Assembly: GCA_021298815.1 (NCBI GenBank)
Contig: JAJTHE010000050.1
Span: forward strand, 1 to 36,780
Reading direction: 5' to 3'
DNA: 36,780 nucleotides
DNA from: Betaproteobacteria bacterium
Lineage (GTDB): Bacteria; Pseudomonadota; Gammaproteobacteria; Burkholderiales; CAIKXV01
Below the pieces are notes generated by a model that searched no databases, was not told the origin of the DNA, and saw only the letters and a program-made list of their open reading frames with translations. Below, one piece after another: positions 2,182-35,168 of the stretch (its first letter is position 1; each line of letters opens with the position of its first letter). Both the position numbers and the translations under genes were made by a program.

Positions 2182-3306
2182 TCACGTCCGCCCTGCGCGG
2201 ACATCTTCCACCGATGCCGCGAACGATCCGTCGCGCCGCTTCAGCGCACGGGTGACCGACCGTTCGTTGCCGAAGGTCGGTATCACCGCCGAGTGCTTGC
2301 CCGCGCCGCCGACCACGATGACGATGTAGTCCTGCGGGCTCTGGCACATCGGCACCATCGCATCGAGGCCGGCCGTCGCGAAGCGCTCCGGGAAGGTCAC
2401 GCGCAGCCGGCGCTCCCGGTTCTCGTCGGAGAACTTCCCGAGCGGCACGCGCGCATGCTCGTAGAGGTACTCCTTCACGTCCTGCTTCGAGAAGCCACCG
2501 CGCGCGACCGTGGCTGCGTGCTCCGGCCCGAACAGGATCACCGGCTCGGACAGGCGGTTGTTGATGTTGTTGACCCCTGTTGTCGCGACCGTACCGGCGA
2601 GTGTCTTCATCACGCCGCCGGCGGTCGTGCTCTCGTGGTCGTTGACGTTGTGCGGTGGTTCGGCGGCGACCACGGTAACGGTCGACGCATGTTCAGGGAA
2701 TCCGCGTTCGACGTGCAGCGGTTCCCATGGGCTCGCCGCCGCGTTCTCCGCGGTGCAGTAGGTGTACTTCGCCGGCGATCCGTAGGTCGCCATGTCGCCC
2801 ACGCCGGGGGATGATCCACCGAGGTTGACCAGGGCGAGCCGCACGGCCCGGCCGATCGTGGCGTTAGCCTGTCCCGCGGGGCCGAACGCGCCATGCCCGC
2901 AGTTCAGCCGGAGTTCCGCGGCGATCGGCCCGTTGAAGATGAGCAGCGGCGAGCACGAATGGGTCGTCGCCTGCACGCCATAGAGGTTGAACGGTTCCTC
3001 GGCCAGCGCTTCGATCGCCAGCACCACCAGCGGGAAGTACTCCGGCCGGCACCCGGCCATCACTGCGTTGGCTGCCAGCCGCAGCGGCGTCGCTGCACCA
3101 TAGCGCGGCGGGATCTTCGCGACGGGCTCGCTCCAGGGCCGGTCGCAGTAGTCGAGCATGCGTTCCACCCGCGCCACCGTCGGAGGCACGATCGGCAGGC
3201 CATCGCTCCAGCCACGCTCGAGGTAGAGCGCGTTGATCTTCTCCAGGTCGTCCTCGGCCTGTAGGCTCGCACCGGGAAGGGCGAGCAGGTCCGGCAGCGA
3301 AGTCAT
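2182..3306 (-). CDS. Conserved protein of unknown function, partner of the UGSC selenoprotein
   Basis: A 374-residue protein with no signal peptide or membrane segment, probably cytoplasmic. I do not recognise a characterised enzyme. Its ATG overlaps the stop of the upstream selenoprotein gene by four bases (ATGA), so the two are probably translationally coupled and work together. Visible features are the opening YLERGWSDGLPIVPPT, a THSCSPLLIFNGPIA segment, LRLNCGHGAFGPAGQANATIGRA, a glycine-rich NLGGSSPGVGD, and IVIVVGGAGKHSAVIPTF near the end. Cysteines occur in YCDRP, AGCRPEY, THSCSP, LNCGHG, YTYCTAE and PMCQSP; any of them could be a redox partner of the Sec residue, but this is speculative. 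Gene reality is well supported by coupling and codon pattern; function is unknown. Confidence 0.85.
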   Translation of the reverse strand: MTSLPDLLALPGASLQAEDDLEKINALYLERGWSDGLPIVPPTVARVERMLDYCDRPWSEPVAKIPPRYGAATPLRLAANAVMAGCRPEYFPLVVLAIEALAEEPFNLYGVQATTHSCSPLLIFNGPIAAELRLNCGHGAFGPAGQANATIGRAVRLALVNLGGSSPGVGDMATYGSPAKYTYCTAENAAASPWEPLHVERGFPEHASTVTVVAAEPPHNVNDHESTTAGGVMKTLAGTVATTGVNNINNRLSEPVILFGPEHAATVARGGFSKQDVKEYLYEHARVPLGKFSDENRERRLRVTFPERFATAGLDAMVPMCQSPQDYIVIVVGGAGKHSAVIPTFGNERSVTRALKRRDGSFAASVEDVRAGRT

Positions 3307-3860
3307 CGGCCCTCCTCCCGGAACAGGTCGAGCAGTTGCGGCACGGCCACGTCGGCGCGAGCCTGCACCTCGGCCAGCAACAGTCCGCCGAGCGGATGCG
3401 GGATCAGGATCAGCGGCAGGTCAGGCACGCCGAACACCCGTGCCTGGGTGCGGCCCAGCTTCAGGAATGCTTCGGAGCAGATCACCGCGGCGCGCAGGCC
3501 GCGCTTCCGGAGCTGGATCATGTCGTGGACACTCCACGACGTGCAGGCTCCTCAATCGGCCATCGCGGTGAGGACGAAGTCCGCCTCCGCCGCGAGTCGA
3601 TCGAGCACTTCGGCAGGCGCGCCCTTGGCCGCGTTGTCCTTGCGCTGCGAGACGACGGACTCGATCGCGACGGAGGCGCGAAGGCCCTCCACCGCGAATC
3701 GCAGCAGGTGGTCCGCATTGCCCTTGCTGTTGTCGAGCAGGCCGAAGCGAAGTCCTGCCCGTGCGGAGCGGGGCGATGCGGCCGGTGCCTCGGCTTCCTT
3801 CGTGGACGCGTCGGGAGCATCCGGGGCGTCCGGGGCGACGAGCGTAATCATTCGTTGCAT
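3303..3860 (-). CDS. UGSC-family selenoprotein (in-frame TGA read as selenocysteine)
   Basis: Annotated as one 185-residue reading frame containing a TGA at 3552-3554 (residue 103). Before it the frame reads GLRFGLLDNSKGNADHLL and then FVLTAMAD; after it GACTSWSVHDMIQLRKRG, ICSEAFL, FGVPDLPLILIPHPLGG. These match what I know of the family that annotation pipelines call UGSC (seleno)protein, where U or C sits at exactly this point before GSCTS and VHD. Here the motif is U-G-A-C, a UxxC redox pair (Sec103/Cys106). A 19-nt hairpin follows 11 nt after the TGA (3522-3540). GGAGGA precedes the ATG at 3860. An APDAPDAPD repeat lies near the N-terminus. The stop overlaps the next gene by ATGA. The alternative is a nonsense-mutated pseudogene, but open sequence, coupling and hairpin argue against it. 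No sel genes are in the window. The biochemical role of the family is not established. Confidence 0.88.
3522..3540 (-). promoter_or_regulatory. Bacterial SECIS-like hairpin downstream of the Sec UGA
   Basis: On the minus strand GTCGTGGA pairs perfectly with TCCACGAC around a GTG loop: 8 base pairs, 3-nt loop, 19 nt in all. It begins 11 nt after the UGA, and the first loop base is G, 20 nt from the UGA. Bacterial SECIS elements bound by SelB, such as that of E. coli fdhF, are minihairpins with similar spacing and a G in the apical loop. Two further pairs (AC with GT-type flank) are possible below one mismatch. The hairpin lies in coding sequence encoding residues just after the UxxC motif. SelB recognition is inferred, not shown. 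Confidence 0.8.
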
Positions 3861-3913
3861 GTGTCCTCCATGGCCTGCCAGCGCTTCAACCGTGGAGCCA
3901 TGGTAGATGACTC

Positions 3914-5158
3914 TCACCCGATCAGCGAGCGCCCCTCCATCCCGTCGCAAGCCTGGCCGAGGAAGCGCAGCAAAGTGGGTGCGATGTCCGGCAGGCTGGT
4001 GGCGTCCCCGACCACCGCCGGCGCAACCTGCGGATGCATCAGCACCAGGAACGGCCGCGTCTCGTCGGGACCAAGGCCGCCGTGGTGGCCGCAGCCGATC
4101 TCGGGTGCCTTCTCGCCATCGGCGACCAGCCAGCGATTGCCGGCGATGCCGCGCGCATTGCGCGCGGTGTCGACCGCGGCCGCAAGCGCCTCGTCGCCGC
4201 CGAGCCCCAGTGCGCGCAGTTCATCGACGCCGAGGATGCGTCCGGCCCAGGGTTCCTGCGCCATCCCGGCGAGCCGCTCTAGCAAGGCAGCGCGCGCGTC
4301 CGGCGTCGCGTAGATCAGCCCCGCCGTCCCCTGCGATGCGACCGCGATGCGTCCCTGTTCGAGTTCGTCCGCCAGTCCTTTCGACGCCAGCCAGCGACCG
4401 ACATGGATCGAATCGCCGATCGCCTCGTGCCCGTGGTCGGAGCACAGTCCCACCAGGATGTCGGCATGCTCGCGGGCACGCTCCACCGCCGCGAGCGTCT
4501 TTTCCGCGAGCGTGTCGACGACCCGCAGTGCCTCGAGATGCTCGGGGCCACCCACCGCCTGGTGGTGCAGGGTGAGGTCCGGATTGGCCAGCCACAGGAT
4601 GCCCACCGCGATGTCGTCGTCCGGCACGACCTGCGTGCAGAAGCGTTCGGTCATCGCGCGATCGCCATCGAGGTCGTGGCTGATCGCGAGATGGTCGGCA
4701 CCCTGCAGCGCGACCCCGCCGGGTCCGTACGAGCCCGATCGATGGAGCACCCGGCCGCCGTGCTCGGGATCGAGGAAATAGGCCGCCCCGGCAGACACGT
4801 TCGAGTACGCGACCTGGCGCAGGCCGGCCGCCGCCAGCCGGTCGGCCATCGTGCGCCGGCGCAGCGCCCGTCCGGTGACCTCGCGCAGGTGCGCGACGAA
4901 GCCGGGCAGCCCCACGTCGCTGACCACCAGCCTGCCTTGTTCCATCAGCGCGACCTGGTTGCCGTACAGGCCGTGCGACCCGGGGAAGCAGCCGGTCGCG
5001 ATGCTGGCGGCCGACACGCGGGTCACCGACGGGAACACCGCGCGATGGTCGGACGCCCGAAGGCCCGCACGCAGGCAGCCATCGATGAACGGCGTATGCC
5101 CCTTGCCGAGCCAGTCCCGGCCCAGTCCGTCGCAGACGACCAGGATCACACGCTTCAC
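3914..5158 (-). CDS. Alkaline-phosphatase-superfamily hydrolase (type I phosphodiesterase/phosphonoacetate hydrolase-like)
   Basis: A 414-residue metal-dependent hydrolase with the alkaline phosphatase fold, expected to cleave a phosphate diester, phosphonate or similar ester. Metal and catalytic residues are visible in order: Asp10 in VVCDGLG, the nucleophile Thr46 in FPSVTRVSAASIATG, Asp and His in NPDLTLHHQAVG, Asp and His in CSDHGHEAIGD, and the C-terminal His in GCGHHGGLGPDE. Residues LHGNQ/YSNVSAGAAYFLDP resemble the phosphonoacetate hydrolase branch of the nucleotide pyrophosphatase family. No signal peptide is seen, so it is likely cytoplasmic. It lies 39 nt after a Bug receptor and 53 nt before the selenoprotein, in the same direction, suggesting it acts on the compound captured by that receptor (inference). 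Exact substrate unknown. Confidence 0.88.
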   Translation of the reverse strand: MKRVILVVCDGLGRDWLGKGHTPFIDGCLRAGLRASDHRAVFPSVTRVSAASIATGCFPGSHGLYGNQVALMEQGRLVVSDVGLPGFVAHLREVTGRALRRRTMADRLAAAGLRQVAYSNVSAGAAYFLDPEHGGRVLHRSGSYGPGGVALQGADHLAISHDLDGDRAMTERFCTQVVPDDDIAVGILWLANPDLTLHHQAVGGPEHLEALRVVDTLAEKTLAAVERAREHADILVGLCSDHGHEAIGDSIHVGRWLASKGLADELEQGRIAVASQGTAGLIYATPDARAALLERLAGMAQEPWAGRILGVDELRALGLGGDEALAAAVDTARNARGIAGNRWLVADGEKAPEIGCGHHGGLGPDETRPFLVLMHPQVAPAVVGDATSLPDIAPTLLRFLGQACDGMEGRSLIG

Positions 5159-5197: not shown

Positions 5198-6199
5198 TCA
5201 GTCCAGTCGAAGTCCCGATCGCGAGACGATGAGGTCGCTGCGCTCGATCTGCGCACGGATGAAGTCGCGCAGCTGCTCGGGCGTGGAACCCACCGGCTCG
5301 GCGCCCTGCTTGAGCAGGGTCGACTGTACCTCCGGGAAGGCCAGCGCGGACACGAACGCCTTGTTGAAGCGGGCTACCATCGCAGCCGGCGCACCCTTCG
5401 GAAGGGCGCTGGCCACCCAGGTGCTGAAGTCGAAGCCGGGGAAGCCGAGTTCCGCGACCGTCTGCGCATCGGGAAGCGCAGTCGCGCGGCGGCTGGAGGT
5501 CACCGCCAGCGCCTGCAGGCGTCCCGATGCGACGAGCGGCACCGCCGGCGGCACGCTGCTGATCGCGACATGCACATGGCCACCGATCGCGTCCTGCACC
5601 AGCGGCCCCGAGCCCTTGTAGGGCACGTGCACCAGCGACACCTTGCCCATCGCGGACAGCAGTTCCCCCGCCAGATGCTGGGGGCTGCCGGCGCCGATGG
5701 AGCCATAGGTGATGGTTCCCGGATTGCTGCGCGCGGTGGCGAGAAACTTCGCGAGCGTCGGGCGCGTGGCCGGATGCGACACCAGCACCAGCGGGAACAC
5801 CGCGATCAGGCTCACCGGCTCGAAGTCGGTGCGCGGGTCGTAGGCCATCTTGCGATAGAGGCTGGTGTTGATCGCCATCTCGCTGGCGGCACCGAACAGC
5901 ACCGTCTGTCCGTCGGGCGAGCTGCGTGCGACATAGGCCGCGCCGACCATGCCGGTGGCGCCTGGCCGGTTCTCGATGATCACCGGTTGCTGCAACGCCT
6001 CGGTCAGCCGGGCTGCGATCGCACGCGCCGTGATGTCGGTGCCACCGCCGGTCGGATACGGGATCACCAGCCGGACCGGGCGATCGTTCGCCTGTGCGAG
6101 GCTGGTCGACGGCGCAAGCGCCAGCGAAGCCGAGAGGATGCCGATCGCGCCGATGTACAGGGTGGTCTGCGCCTGCCGCGCAGCGCTCGATCGTGACAT
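5198..6199 (-). CDS. Bug/TctC-family periplasmic substrate-binding protein (first gene of the selenoprotein operon)
   Basis: A 333-residue receptor of the tripartite tricarboxylate transporter type. The signal peptide ends around SLAQA, then DRPVRLVIPYPTGGGTDITAR, IIENRPGATGMVGAAYVARS, HVPYKGSGPLVQDAIGG and LPDAQTVAELGFPGFDFSTW. The ATG at 6199 follows AAGGGCAGG; an in-frame ATG at 6253 would add 18 non-signal-like residues. It is followed closely on the same strand by the phosphodiesterase-like hydrolase, the selenoprotein and the 374-residue protein, so it is probably the uptake receptor for that pathway. The 192 bases upstream separate it from the GntR regulator on the same strand, which may control it. 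Ligand unknown. Confidence 0.92.
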   Translation of the reverse strand: MSRSSAARQAQTTLYIGAIGILSASLALAPSTSLAQANDRPVRLVIPYPTGGGTDITARAIAARLTEALQQPVIIENRPGATGMVGAAYVARSSPDGQTVLFGAASEMAINTSLYRKMAYDPRTDFEPVSLIAVFPLVLVSHPATRPTLAKFLATARSNPGTITYGSIGAGSPQHLAGELLSAMGKVSLVHVPYKGSGPLVQDAIGGHVHVAISSVPPAVPLVASGRLQALAVTSSRRATALPDAQTVAELGFPGFDFSTWVASALPKGAPAAMVARFNKAFVSALAFPEVQSTLLKQGAEPVGSTPEQLRDFIRAQIERSDLIVSRSGLRLD

Positions 6200-6261
6200 G
6201 GCCTGCCCTTCGATGAATGCGAAGCGACCAAGTCTGAGGGGCGCGAGTGACACATCGATGA

Positions 6262-6391: not shown

Positions 6392-7156
6392 CTACCGATT
6401 CCGCCCCGCCGCTCGCGCCTCGCGCTTGAGCTCGAACCGATACCGGTAGCGCTCCTCCGGGTGCACGCTGACCGACGTCTGGAACACCTCGCCACTGCGA
6501 CCGGTGTAGGTGCGCATCACCACCATCGCCGGCGACTCGGCCTCGGCCTTGAGCGCGGCGGCCATGCGCTTGGGCACCCGCATCACGAACAGCTCGATGT
6601 CGGCGCGCTCGATCACTTCGTCGAACAGCTCGACGATCTGTTCGCACACCGGCATCGACGTATGCCTGCGATGCTTCGTGACGCTGGCGTACTGCGGCAG
6701 CACGTAGGTGTCGGTCCAGCACAGCGGCACGGTGGACTTGCCGGCGTAACGCAGCGTGGTGATCTGGAACCATTCCTTGCCGGCGGGGCAGTGCAACTGC
6801 TGGGCCAGCGCGGCATCGGCCTTCACGTAGCGGGTGGCGGTCACCTTGCGATGGGTGTCGCGCGGATAGTCGAGCAGTTCGTTCACCGAGGTGACTGCAT
6901 GCGACAGCACCACCGGCATGTGGGTGGCGACCACCACCGAACCGGTGCGTGGACGGCGCACGATCAGTCCCTCGGTCGAGAGCGTCGCCAGCGCCTGGCG
7001 CAGCGTCGGACGGCTGGTGTCGAACAGCGTGGCGAGTTCCGCCTCGATCGGCAGCCGCATGCCAAGCGCATACACGCCGGACTGGATGTCGGCGCGCAGC
7101 CGGTCGGCGATCTGGGTGTGGCGGGGAGGACTCTTCTGGGGCGCCATTTCAATCAT
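6392..7156 (-). CDS. GntR-family transcriptional regulator, HutC subfamily (UTRA domain)
   Basis: A 254-residue regulator. Residues about 10-75 form the GntR winged helix-turn-helix: HTQIADRLRADIQSGVYALG, LPIEAELATLFDTSRPTLRQ, LSTEGLIVRRPRTGSVV. The rest fits a UTRA ligand-binding domain (EWFQITTLRYA, PLCWTDTYVLPQYA, VVMRTYTGRSGEVFQTSVSVHP). HutC-type proteins usually repress transport and catabolic genes until a small effector binds. It is divergent from the Bug receptor at 7281, and its start codon lies next to a TTGACAATTCA element that is also found upstream of the monooxygenase at 9501. This suggests autorepression and control of the 7281-10799 genes, and perhaps of the minus-strand operon below it. 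The effector is unknown. A start at 7147 (MAPQ) is possible. Confidence 0.92.
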   Translation of the reverse strand: MIEMAPQKSPPRHTQIADRLRADIQSGVYALGMRLPIEAELATLFDTSRPTLRQALATLSTEGLIVRRPRTGSVVVATHMPVVLSHAVTSVNELLDYPRDTHRKVTATRYVKADAALAQQLHCPAGKEWFQITTLRYAGKSTVPLCWTDTYVLPQYASVTKHRRHTSMPVCEQIVELFDEVIERADIELFVMRVPKRMAAALKAEAESPAMVVMRTYTGRSGEVFQTSVSVHPEERYRYRFELKREARAAGRNR

Positions 7157-34175: not shown

Positions 34176-35168
34176 ATGAGGAATCCGTCGCCGTCCGCCA
34201 CGCGCACGATGCCGCTTGCCTGCCTGATCGCTGGCCTGCTGGGCGGGGCCATGCCGCAGGCGCTCGCACAGTCGTTTCCCGTCAAGCCGATCCGCATGAT
34301 CGTCGGGCTCGGGCCCGGCGGCGCCGCGGACACCACCGCCCGGCTGCTCGGCCAGCGGATGGCTACCGAACTCGGCCAGCCCGTGCTGGTCGACAACCGC
34401 ACCGGCGCGAGCGGCGTGATCGCCTACCAGCTCGTCGCCTCGTCGATCCCGGACGGCTATACCCTGGCCCTTGTCACCGCCGCGGTCACCACGCTGCCGT
34501 TCCTGCATACCAAGCTGCCCTACGACATCGAGAAGGACCTCGTCCCGGTCGCGGTGCCCACCAGCAGTTCGCATGTGCTGCTGGTCAACCCGAGCGTGAA
34601 GGCGACAACGGTGGCGGAGCTGATCGCGCTCGCCCGCGCCAACCCCGGCAAGCTGAGCTACGCGTCCACCGGCGTAGGCAGCGCGCAGCACATGGCGGGC
34701 GAGTTCTTCAACATCCTGGCGAAGACCAACATCCTGCATGTCGCCTACAAGGGAGGTGCCGAGAGCGTGATGGCCACGCTGAGCGGGCAGGTCGAGGTCA
34801 CCTACGGCAGCCTGGTCGCCTCGACGTCGCTGATCAACGCCGGCAAGCTGCGCGCACTGGGCATCACCGGCACCACGCGCTCGCCGCTGCTGCCCTCGGT
34901 GCCCACCATCAGCGAAGCCGGCCTGCCCGGCTACGACTCGGTCGCGTGGTACGGCGTGATGGCCCCGGCACGCACGCCGCGCCCGATCATCACGCGGCTG
35001 AACGAGGTGATCGTCAAGGCCGGCCAGACGGCAGAGCTGCGCGAGGCCTACGCGAAGATCGGCCTCGAGCCCCAGTCGCACACACCGGAACAGTTCGCGG
35101 AGCTGATCCGCAGCGAGCTGGCCAAGAACCGGAAGCTGGTCGCCGAGGCCGGGATCAAGGCCAATTGA
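34176..35168 (+). CDS. Bug/TctC-family periplasmic substrate-binding protein
   Basis: A 330-residue receptor. The signal peptide ends PQALAQ, then FPVKPIRMIVGLGPGGAAD, VLVDNRTGASGVIAYQLVASS, HVAYKGGAESVMATLSGQVE, LPSVPTISEAGLPGYDSVAW and APARTPRPIITRLNE. GAGAGGAGGAAGCC precedes the ATG at 34176. It follows aconitase by 97 bases with no clear terminator and so probably belongs to the polycarboxylate operon. A second receptor starts 29 bases downstream. Because TctC itself binds tricarboxylates, this genomic position makes a tricarboxylic ligand reasonable, but it is not demonstrated. Confidence 0.92.
   Translation: MRNPSPSATRTMPLACLIAGLLGGAMPQALAQSFPVKPIRMIVGLGPGGAADTTARLLGQRMATELGQPVLVDNRTGASGVIAYQLVASSIPDGYTLALVTAAVTTLPFLHTKLPYDIEKDLVPVAVPTSSSHVLLVNPSVKATTVAELIALARANPGKLSYASTGVGSAQHMAGEFFNILAKTNILHVAYKGGAESVMATLSGQVEVTYGSLVASTSLINAGKLRALGITGTTRSPLLPSVPTISEAGLPGYDSVAWYGVMAPARTPRPIITRLNEVIVKAGQTAELREAYAKIGLEPQSHTPEQFAELIRSELAKNRKLVAEAGIKAN

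Follow-up and report, generated by a model that had tools for sequence, protein, structure and literature searches.

A UGSC-family gene with a predicted selenocysteine codon forms a two-gene unit with its neighbor and belongs to a family with many copies in some Burkholderiales genomes

A minus-strand gene of the UGSC family, interrupted by an in-frame TGA, and the gene that adjoins it were analyzed in a stretch of 36,780 nucleotides from a Betaproteobacteria bacterium (the whole stretch is called the window below). Selenocysteine (Sec, U) is the predicted reading of the TGA, and this interpretation as a selenoprotein is strongly supported. Our preferred explanation, to which we assign a probability of a little under 60%, is that the genome's sel genes decode the TGA and that the UGSC protein probably acts as a two-subunit reductase with its 374-residue partner. 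In one related genome, about fifty such genes, each with an adjoining gene, likely build selenium-dependent reducing enzymes.

The minus-strand frame runs from ATG 3858-3860 to a terminal TGA at 3303-3305, and its sole internal stop is TGA 3552-3554. This confirmed the frame and the TGA of an initial annotation of the window, which had joined two open stretches over this codon and had pointed to landmarks on both sides. The read-through product has 185 residues with U at position 103; UGACTSWSVHD spans the codon, GLLDNSK lies upstream of U103 and PDLPLILIPHPLGG downstream. A GGAGG is located 4 bases 5' of the start ATG. The window is GC-rich, and at 69 places a TGA separates two open stretches of 70 codons or more each. 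Since such joined stretches are common in the window, the case for read-through comes from homology that covers both halves, and both halves of the product are conserved, up to an invariant HP.

PF24696 (UGSC) matches residues 19 to 180 of the product (E = 2.5e-45; 155.1 bits, cut-off 25), and NF041046 (UGSC_fam) matches with 127.9 bits (cut-off 125). Exceeding both cut-offs, with U where the family has U or C and with a UxxC motif, the gene is a further member of a known family; the unusual part is the scale of this family in Burkholderiales and its two-gene unit. The window gene differs from the family by an Ala in place of Ser, giving U-G-A-C with U, G and C retained. The initial annotation had remarked on this Ala. 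It is indeed unusual, since 55 of 59 TGA loci have GSC, three GGC and one GAC, but it is not unique, because U-G-A-C also occurs in 2 of 11 loci of a related genome (G293) and in a Myxococcales metagenome-assembled genome. In the latter (L104:8001-8438, from Lake Baikal), 33 bases from the TGA through the end of the hairpin described below are identical to those of the window.

A database search with the read-through protein returned 11 relatives. Nine of them stop one residue short of U, including the window's own entry, a 102-residue fragment, and relatives at 93% and 77% identity. Thus, standard annotation cuts the gene short, as had been anticipated. The remaining two carry W (P0003) and C at the U place, according to their protein entries alone. 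In a scan of named loci, 43 of 44 had Cys and one had TGA at the U place; the scan pattern asked for Cys, which by design makes almost all of these loci Cys forms. In a tree of 103 domains, Cys and Sec forms are intermixed, with at least five switches on well-supported branches and nine on the best tree; the direction of these switches depends on the root of the tree and is not settled.

Bacterial selenoprotein mRNAs carry a hairpin shortly after the UGA, with a G in the first two loop bases. The window gene has a hairpin like a Sec insertion sequence (SECIS) that agrees with this rule: its stem starts 11 bases past the TGA, and GUCGUGG pairs with CCACGAC around the loop AGUGU (fold z, -3.3). 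The inner six stem pairs are all standard in 58 of the 59 TGA loci versus 9 of 43 loci with Cys, which come from other organisms, and in random synonymous redraws of the 59 loci they were retained in 10.9 on average and in 21 at most (300 draws); the loci are related to each other, and these counts are therefore not independent trials. Stem pair 21-27 is CG in 38 loci, GC in 20 and nonstandard in one. Covariation was judged by five measures, two of which were less clear. Among 52 distinct rows, 96.2% of the cells pair, a value matched by none of 500 shuffles, and 34 cells changed on both sides versus 10.5 in shuffles, none of 500 reaching 34. Furthermore, the loop serine codon is AGT in 52 of 52 TGA loci versus none of 16 Cys loci with Ser there; across 19 genes of the window, AGT accounts for 12 of 409 Ser codons. 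We conclude that the hairpin is conserved and specific to the TGA forms.

The sel genes, which the initial annotation had suggested looking for, are all present in the same genome. On contig C23, selA (38721-40052; 580 bits, cut-off 267.9), selB (408.8 bits, cut-off 242.25) and selC, a tRNA-Sec gene with anticodon tca (72.9 bits; ARAGORN agrees), sit together. On contig C170, selD was found (410.5 bits), with its own in-frame TGA within GGGUGCK. A second kind of likely selenoprotein is encoded by a PrdB-like gene (L137; G000:C146:21220-21810), which has an in-frame TGA in UPNC and a hairpin after it.

Among 399 sampled genomes of the order, a UGSC match was detected in 43 (40 above cut-off) and a selA match (E up to 1e-40) in 108 (107 above cut-off). 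A selA match is present in 38 of the 40 genomes with UGSC above cut-off versus 70 of the 359 others (Fisher p = 5e-22, relatedness not corrected). In the genus, selB is above cut-off in 9 of 11 genomes. In three genomes (G211, C88; G059, C81; G240, C56), selA shares its contig with a UGSC gene no more than about 1.3 kb away. The earlier view that selenoproteins are uncommon in this lineage did not hold up, given the 108 genomes with a selA match and eight UGSC loci in the window's genome. That the gene encodes a UGSC-family selenoprotein, in turn, is supported by the family models, the sel genes, the TGA-specific hairpin and the Cys found at the same place by the Cys-pattern scan.

All eight UGSC matches in the window's genome have one TGA, in each case at the U place. 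In the order-wide sample, where up to eight candidates per genome were scored, the matches listed each have one TGA. When all candidates were scored in eight chosen genomes, seven of them rich in candidates, 9 to 58 UGSC matches were found in each. Among the matches listed for these genomes, one in G140 (C44:7810-8313) has no stop at all; the other listed matches of G140 carry TGA. The highest number was in G293 (98% complete, 2% contamination), where 51 of the 58 matches, some of them partial, have exactly one TGA. Three have a TGA plus another stop and look decayed, one of these being split in two. Four have no stop; of these, one scores under the cut-off, one is full-length but weak, and two are partial, one of them being the continuation of a neighboring match. 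The TGA was at the U place in all 11 G293 loci in which its position was checked.

The ATG of the partner gene (3306-3304) overlaps the UGSC stop as ATGA, a coupling already seen in the initial annotation. A search with the partner protein yielded 7898 relatives among 7997 scored candidates. In the fetched stretches, a partner relative stands beside UGSC in 56 of the 59 TGA loci found by search, the exceptions being L026, where a contig end cuts it, L055 and L062. The same holds for 43 of the 44 named loci; in the exception, L096, 161 bases separate the UGSC start from the end of the stretch. In larger stretches the partner is next to 18 of 18 UGSC matches (7 in this genome and 11 in G293, overlapping the 59-locus set). 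The loci were found via UGSC, and so these counts show that UGSC rarely occurs without the partner, not the reverse. Together they show that UGSC and partner form a regularly paired two-gene unit. No Pfam or NCBIfam family matched the partner; its structure model is confident (pLDDT 91.8) and gave no clear known fold by structure comparison, and Cys86 and Cys184 are nearly invariant. In the text available from the 2008 Global Ocean Sampling survey (PMC2398784), a UGSC/Unknown_1 fusion likewise joins UGSC to a conserved second domain, whereas UGSC and partner are separate matches in the larger stretches of this genome and G293.

Profile comparison of UGSC with PrdB by hhalign gave 82.5% (E = 9.8e-6), with U placed on the PrdB Sec/Cys, C on a PrdB Cys and the UGSC HPLGG on a PrdB-like FPLGN. 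In the controls, UGSC reached at most 2.7% with ten other families and reversed PrdB, and PrdB at most 4.1% with the same families. The GrdB model was weakly matched by 12 of 20 UGSC members (best E = 2.7e-5). At the level of sequence profiles, these results show that the UGSC protein is distantly related to selenoprotein B, i.e., PrdB of D-proline reductase (TIGR04483) and GrdB of glycine reductase (TIGR01917), from which it differs in scoring far under the curated cut-offs. GrdB and PrdB operate with further subunits and thiol donors, and the pyruvoyl-forming partner subunit in these systems is GrdE/PrdA. No NCBIfam model of this pyruvoyl-forming kind matched 58 partner sequences (E up to 1), and the partner did not match the PrdB profile. 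The structure model of the UGSC protein (pLDDT 85.9) consists of five alternating strand-helix units, and flavodoxin-like, receiver-like and GTPase folds predominate among its listed structural matches.

A selenol reductase with two subunits, recycled by thioredoxin and acting on small organic acids, may be proposed. Binding or activation of the substrate would fall to the partner, and the selenol of U103 would attack the bound substrate. The selenocysteine of PrdB is thought to attack D-proline likewise. C106 would then resolve the intermediate to a Se-S bond, which thioredoxin or another thiol system could reset; thioredoxin is described as the thiol donor for glycine reductase in the part of PMC13188914 available to us. 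Each of the many paralogue pairs in a genome might serve another substrate. A wider proposal, to which we would give somewhat less than even odds, is that UGSC and partner represent a novel class of two-subunit reductases that depend on selenium and are cousins of glycine and proline reductase. This class would have radiated in Burkholderiales-type bacteria, reaching about fifty paralogues in one genome, with a different organic acid for each. These bacteria would then be among the most selenoprotein-rich known, with standard annotation cutting the genes short. The GrdB/PrdB kinship replaces a "function unknown" by a testable hypothesis, namely that Sec carries out a reductive cleavage together with a new partner subunit.

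UGSC is on the selenoprotein lists of PMC2398784, PMC9312934 and PMC13188914, as far as their accessible text goes. The UGSC row in a table of PMC5029168 (2016) gives 26 and 33, which we take as organisms and genes. The richest sequenced bacterium named in the accessible part of that paper has 39 selenoprotein genes. At least 57 and 63, all families together, are given for two other cases in PMC13188914, where the richest organisms are mostly anaerobic and other lineages are named. Set against these published 39, 57 and 63 genes over all families, G293 has 58 matches of a single family, 51 of them with exactly one TGA. If the genes are made, selenium would support a large hidden part of the metabolism of these bacteria. 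In the mostly open-access literature searched, taken without supplements, no report was found of the partner as a constant neighbor, of kinship to selenoprotein B or of this paralogue expansion.

Is the TGA read as Sec at all? If the gene were a pseudogene, or the TGA a sequencing error or a true stop, one could point to an assembly in 173 contigs, to the rare Ala in the motif and to the few decayed-looking copies of G293. This is nevertheless very unlikely: all matches in the genome have one TGA, the entries of the relatives with 93% and 77% identity stop at this very residue, conservation extends over both halves up to the invariant HP, the hairpin and the loop codon are kept, and sel genes are present. 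Reading of the TGA as Trp (code 4), or its general suppression, would suit the W of P0003, but we regard it as extremely improbable because the UGSC gene itself terminates at TGA, tRNA-Sec and SelB are present, and the hairpin is specific to TGA forms. The Cys in 43 of the 44 named loci also speaks for Sec, though, with a scan that asked for Cys, it is no test of Trp. The W of P0003 may reflect a TGA read as Trp or a genuine Trp codon. Two observations had been named beforehand as refuting the selenoprotein, a lack of sel genes and, in close relatives, frame decay or a codon other than TGA or Cys. Neither is established: the sel genes are there, relatives keep the TGA, and the single W is known from a protein entry alone.

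With respect to function, the UGSC selenoprotein could do general thiol-disulfide or peroxide redox work instead of reductive catabolism of a bound substrate. The UxxC motif would fit such a role, and so would thioredoxin reductase neighbors, which equally suit the thioredoxin recycling proposed above: a thioredoxin-reductase-like cluster was seen in 9 of the 44 named loci (stretches up to 16.5 kb; Alcaligenaceae and several actinobacteria). Of four such genes scanned, three are above the cut-off and one is just below it (335 versus 343.45); one of the three encodes a reductase-thioredoxin fusion and adjoins the partner. We consider a general redox role unlikely, if clearly worth keeping in mind, since the five strand-helix units of the model resemble mostly flavodoxin-like, receiver-like and GTPase folds and the remote kinship points to GrdB/PrdB. 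Moreover, dozens of paralogues and the CoA-transferase, acyl-CoA dehydrogenase and hydrolase neighbors in part of the named loci (mostly recognized by eye) fit catabolism better. Alternatively, the partner could be the enzyme proper, perhaps with a hydratase- or lyase-like fold, and UGSC could only repair or protect it. This is improbable in view of a UGSC gene that adjoins the partner in almost every locus examined (all found via UGSC), of the highly conserved U/C-G-x-C and of the recurrence of the two genes as a pair.

Several observations weigh against a Sec-dependent two-subunit reductase. The NF041046 score is barely above its cut-off, the TIGR01917 score is 13.7 against a cut-off of 602.2 bits, a W stands at the Sec place in P0003, and no model of a known reductase subunit matched the 58 partner sequences. 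In the hairpin, the outermost stem pair is standard in 43 of 59 loci, the sole exception for the inner pairs (L023) has a diverged hairpin region, and the two less clear covariation measures, namely how many pairs changed on both sides and how many further pair types occurred, were reached in 36 and 9 of 500 shuffles, respectively. The assembly is 88% complete. No selA match was found in two of the 40 UGSC genomes (G103 and G144), each having a tRNA-Sec above threshold, and selB is not above cut-off in G144 and G330 (84% and 83% complete). Thioredoxin reductase genes adjoin Cys forms; none was found among the window genes scanned, and at a different UGSC locus in the genome the nearest candidate scored 198.5 against a cut-off of 343.45. 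Finally, adjacency of a TctC gene is not evidence, because at least 150 TctC (Bug) receptor matches were found in the 5.4-Mb genome (G000; 150 of 576 candidates scored).

Features of the UGSC region in the window
Feature	Position	Strand	Basis
UGSC-family selenoprotein gene (predicted), 185 residues, U103	3303..3860	minus	open frame and family profile matches
In-frame TGA, predicted Sec codon	3552..3554	minus	frame; Cys codon here in 43/44 named loci (scan pattern demanded Cys)
SECIS-like hairpin, 7-bp stem, loop AGUGU (3529-3533)	3522..3540	minus	folding and conservation
GGAGG, likely ribosome-binding site of UGSC gene	3865..3869	minus	sequence; putative function
Partner gene (374 residues), without a Pfam or NCBIfam family	2182..3306	minus	start overlaps UGSC stop as ATGA
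Type I phosphodiesterase family hydrolase (PF01663)	3914..5158	minus	profile match; 53 bases upstream of UGSC gene
TctC (Bug) solute-binding protein	5198..6253	minus	profile match
GntR-UTRA regulator	6392..7156	minus	same strand as UGSC gene; possible regulator of the cluster

In the window, the genes for the GntR-UTRA regulator, the TctC receptor, the hydrolase, UGSC and the partner follow each other on the same strand, and the first three fit a catabolic operon. TctC matches are located at 59-2178, 5198-6253 and 34338-35153. Several members of the Bordetella-Alcaligenaceae group have genes for a CoA-transferase and a TctC-like receptor (the latter recognized by eye) after the Cys pair, and some also have a thioredoxin reductase gene there; the CoA-transferase and the thioredoxin reductase of L085 were checked by profile scan. 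Near this Bordetella Cys pair, a sulfopyruvate/phosphonopyruvate-decarboxylase-like alpha gene (L085:298-1427, minus strand; scanned) was found together with a possible beta gene.
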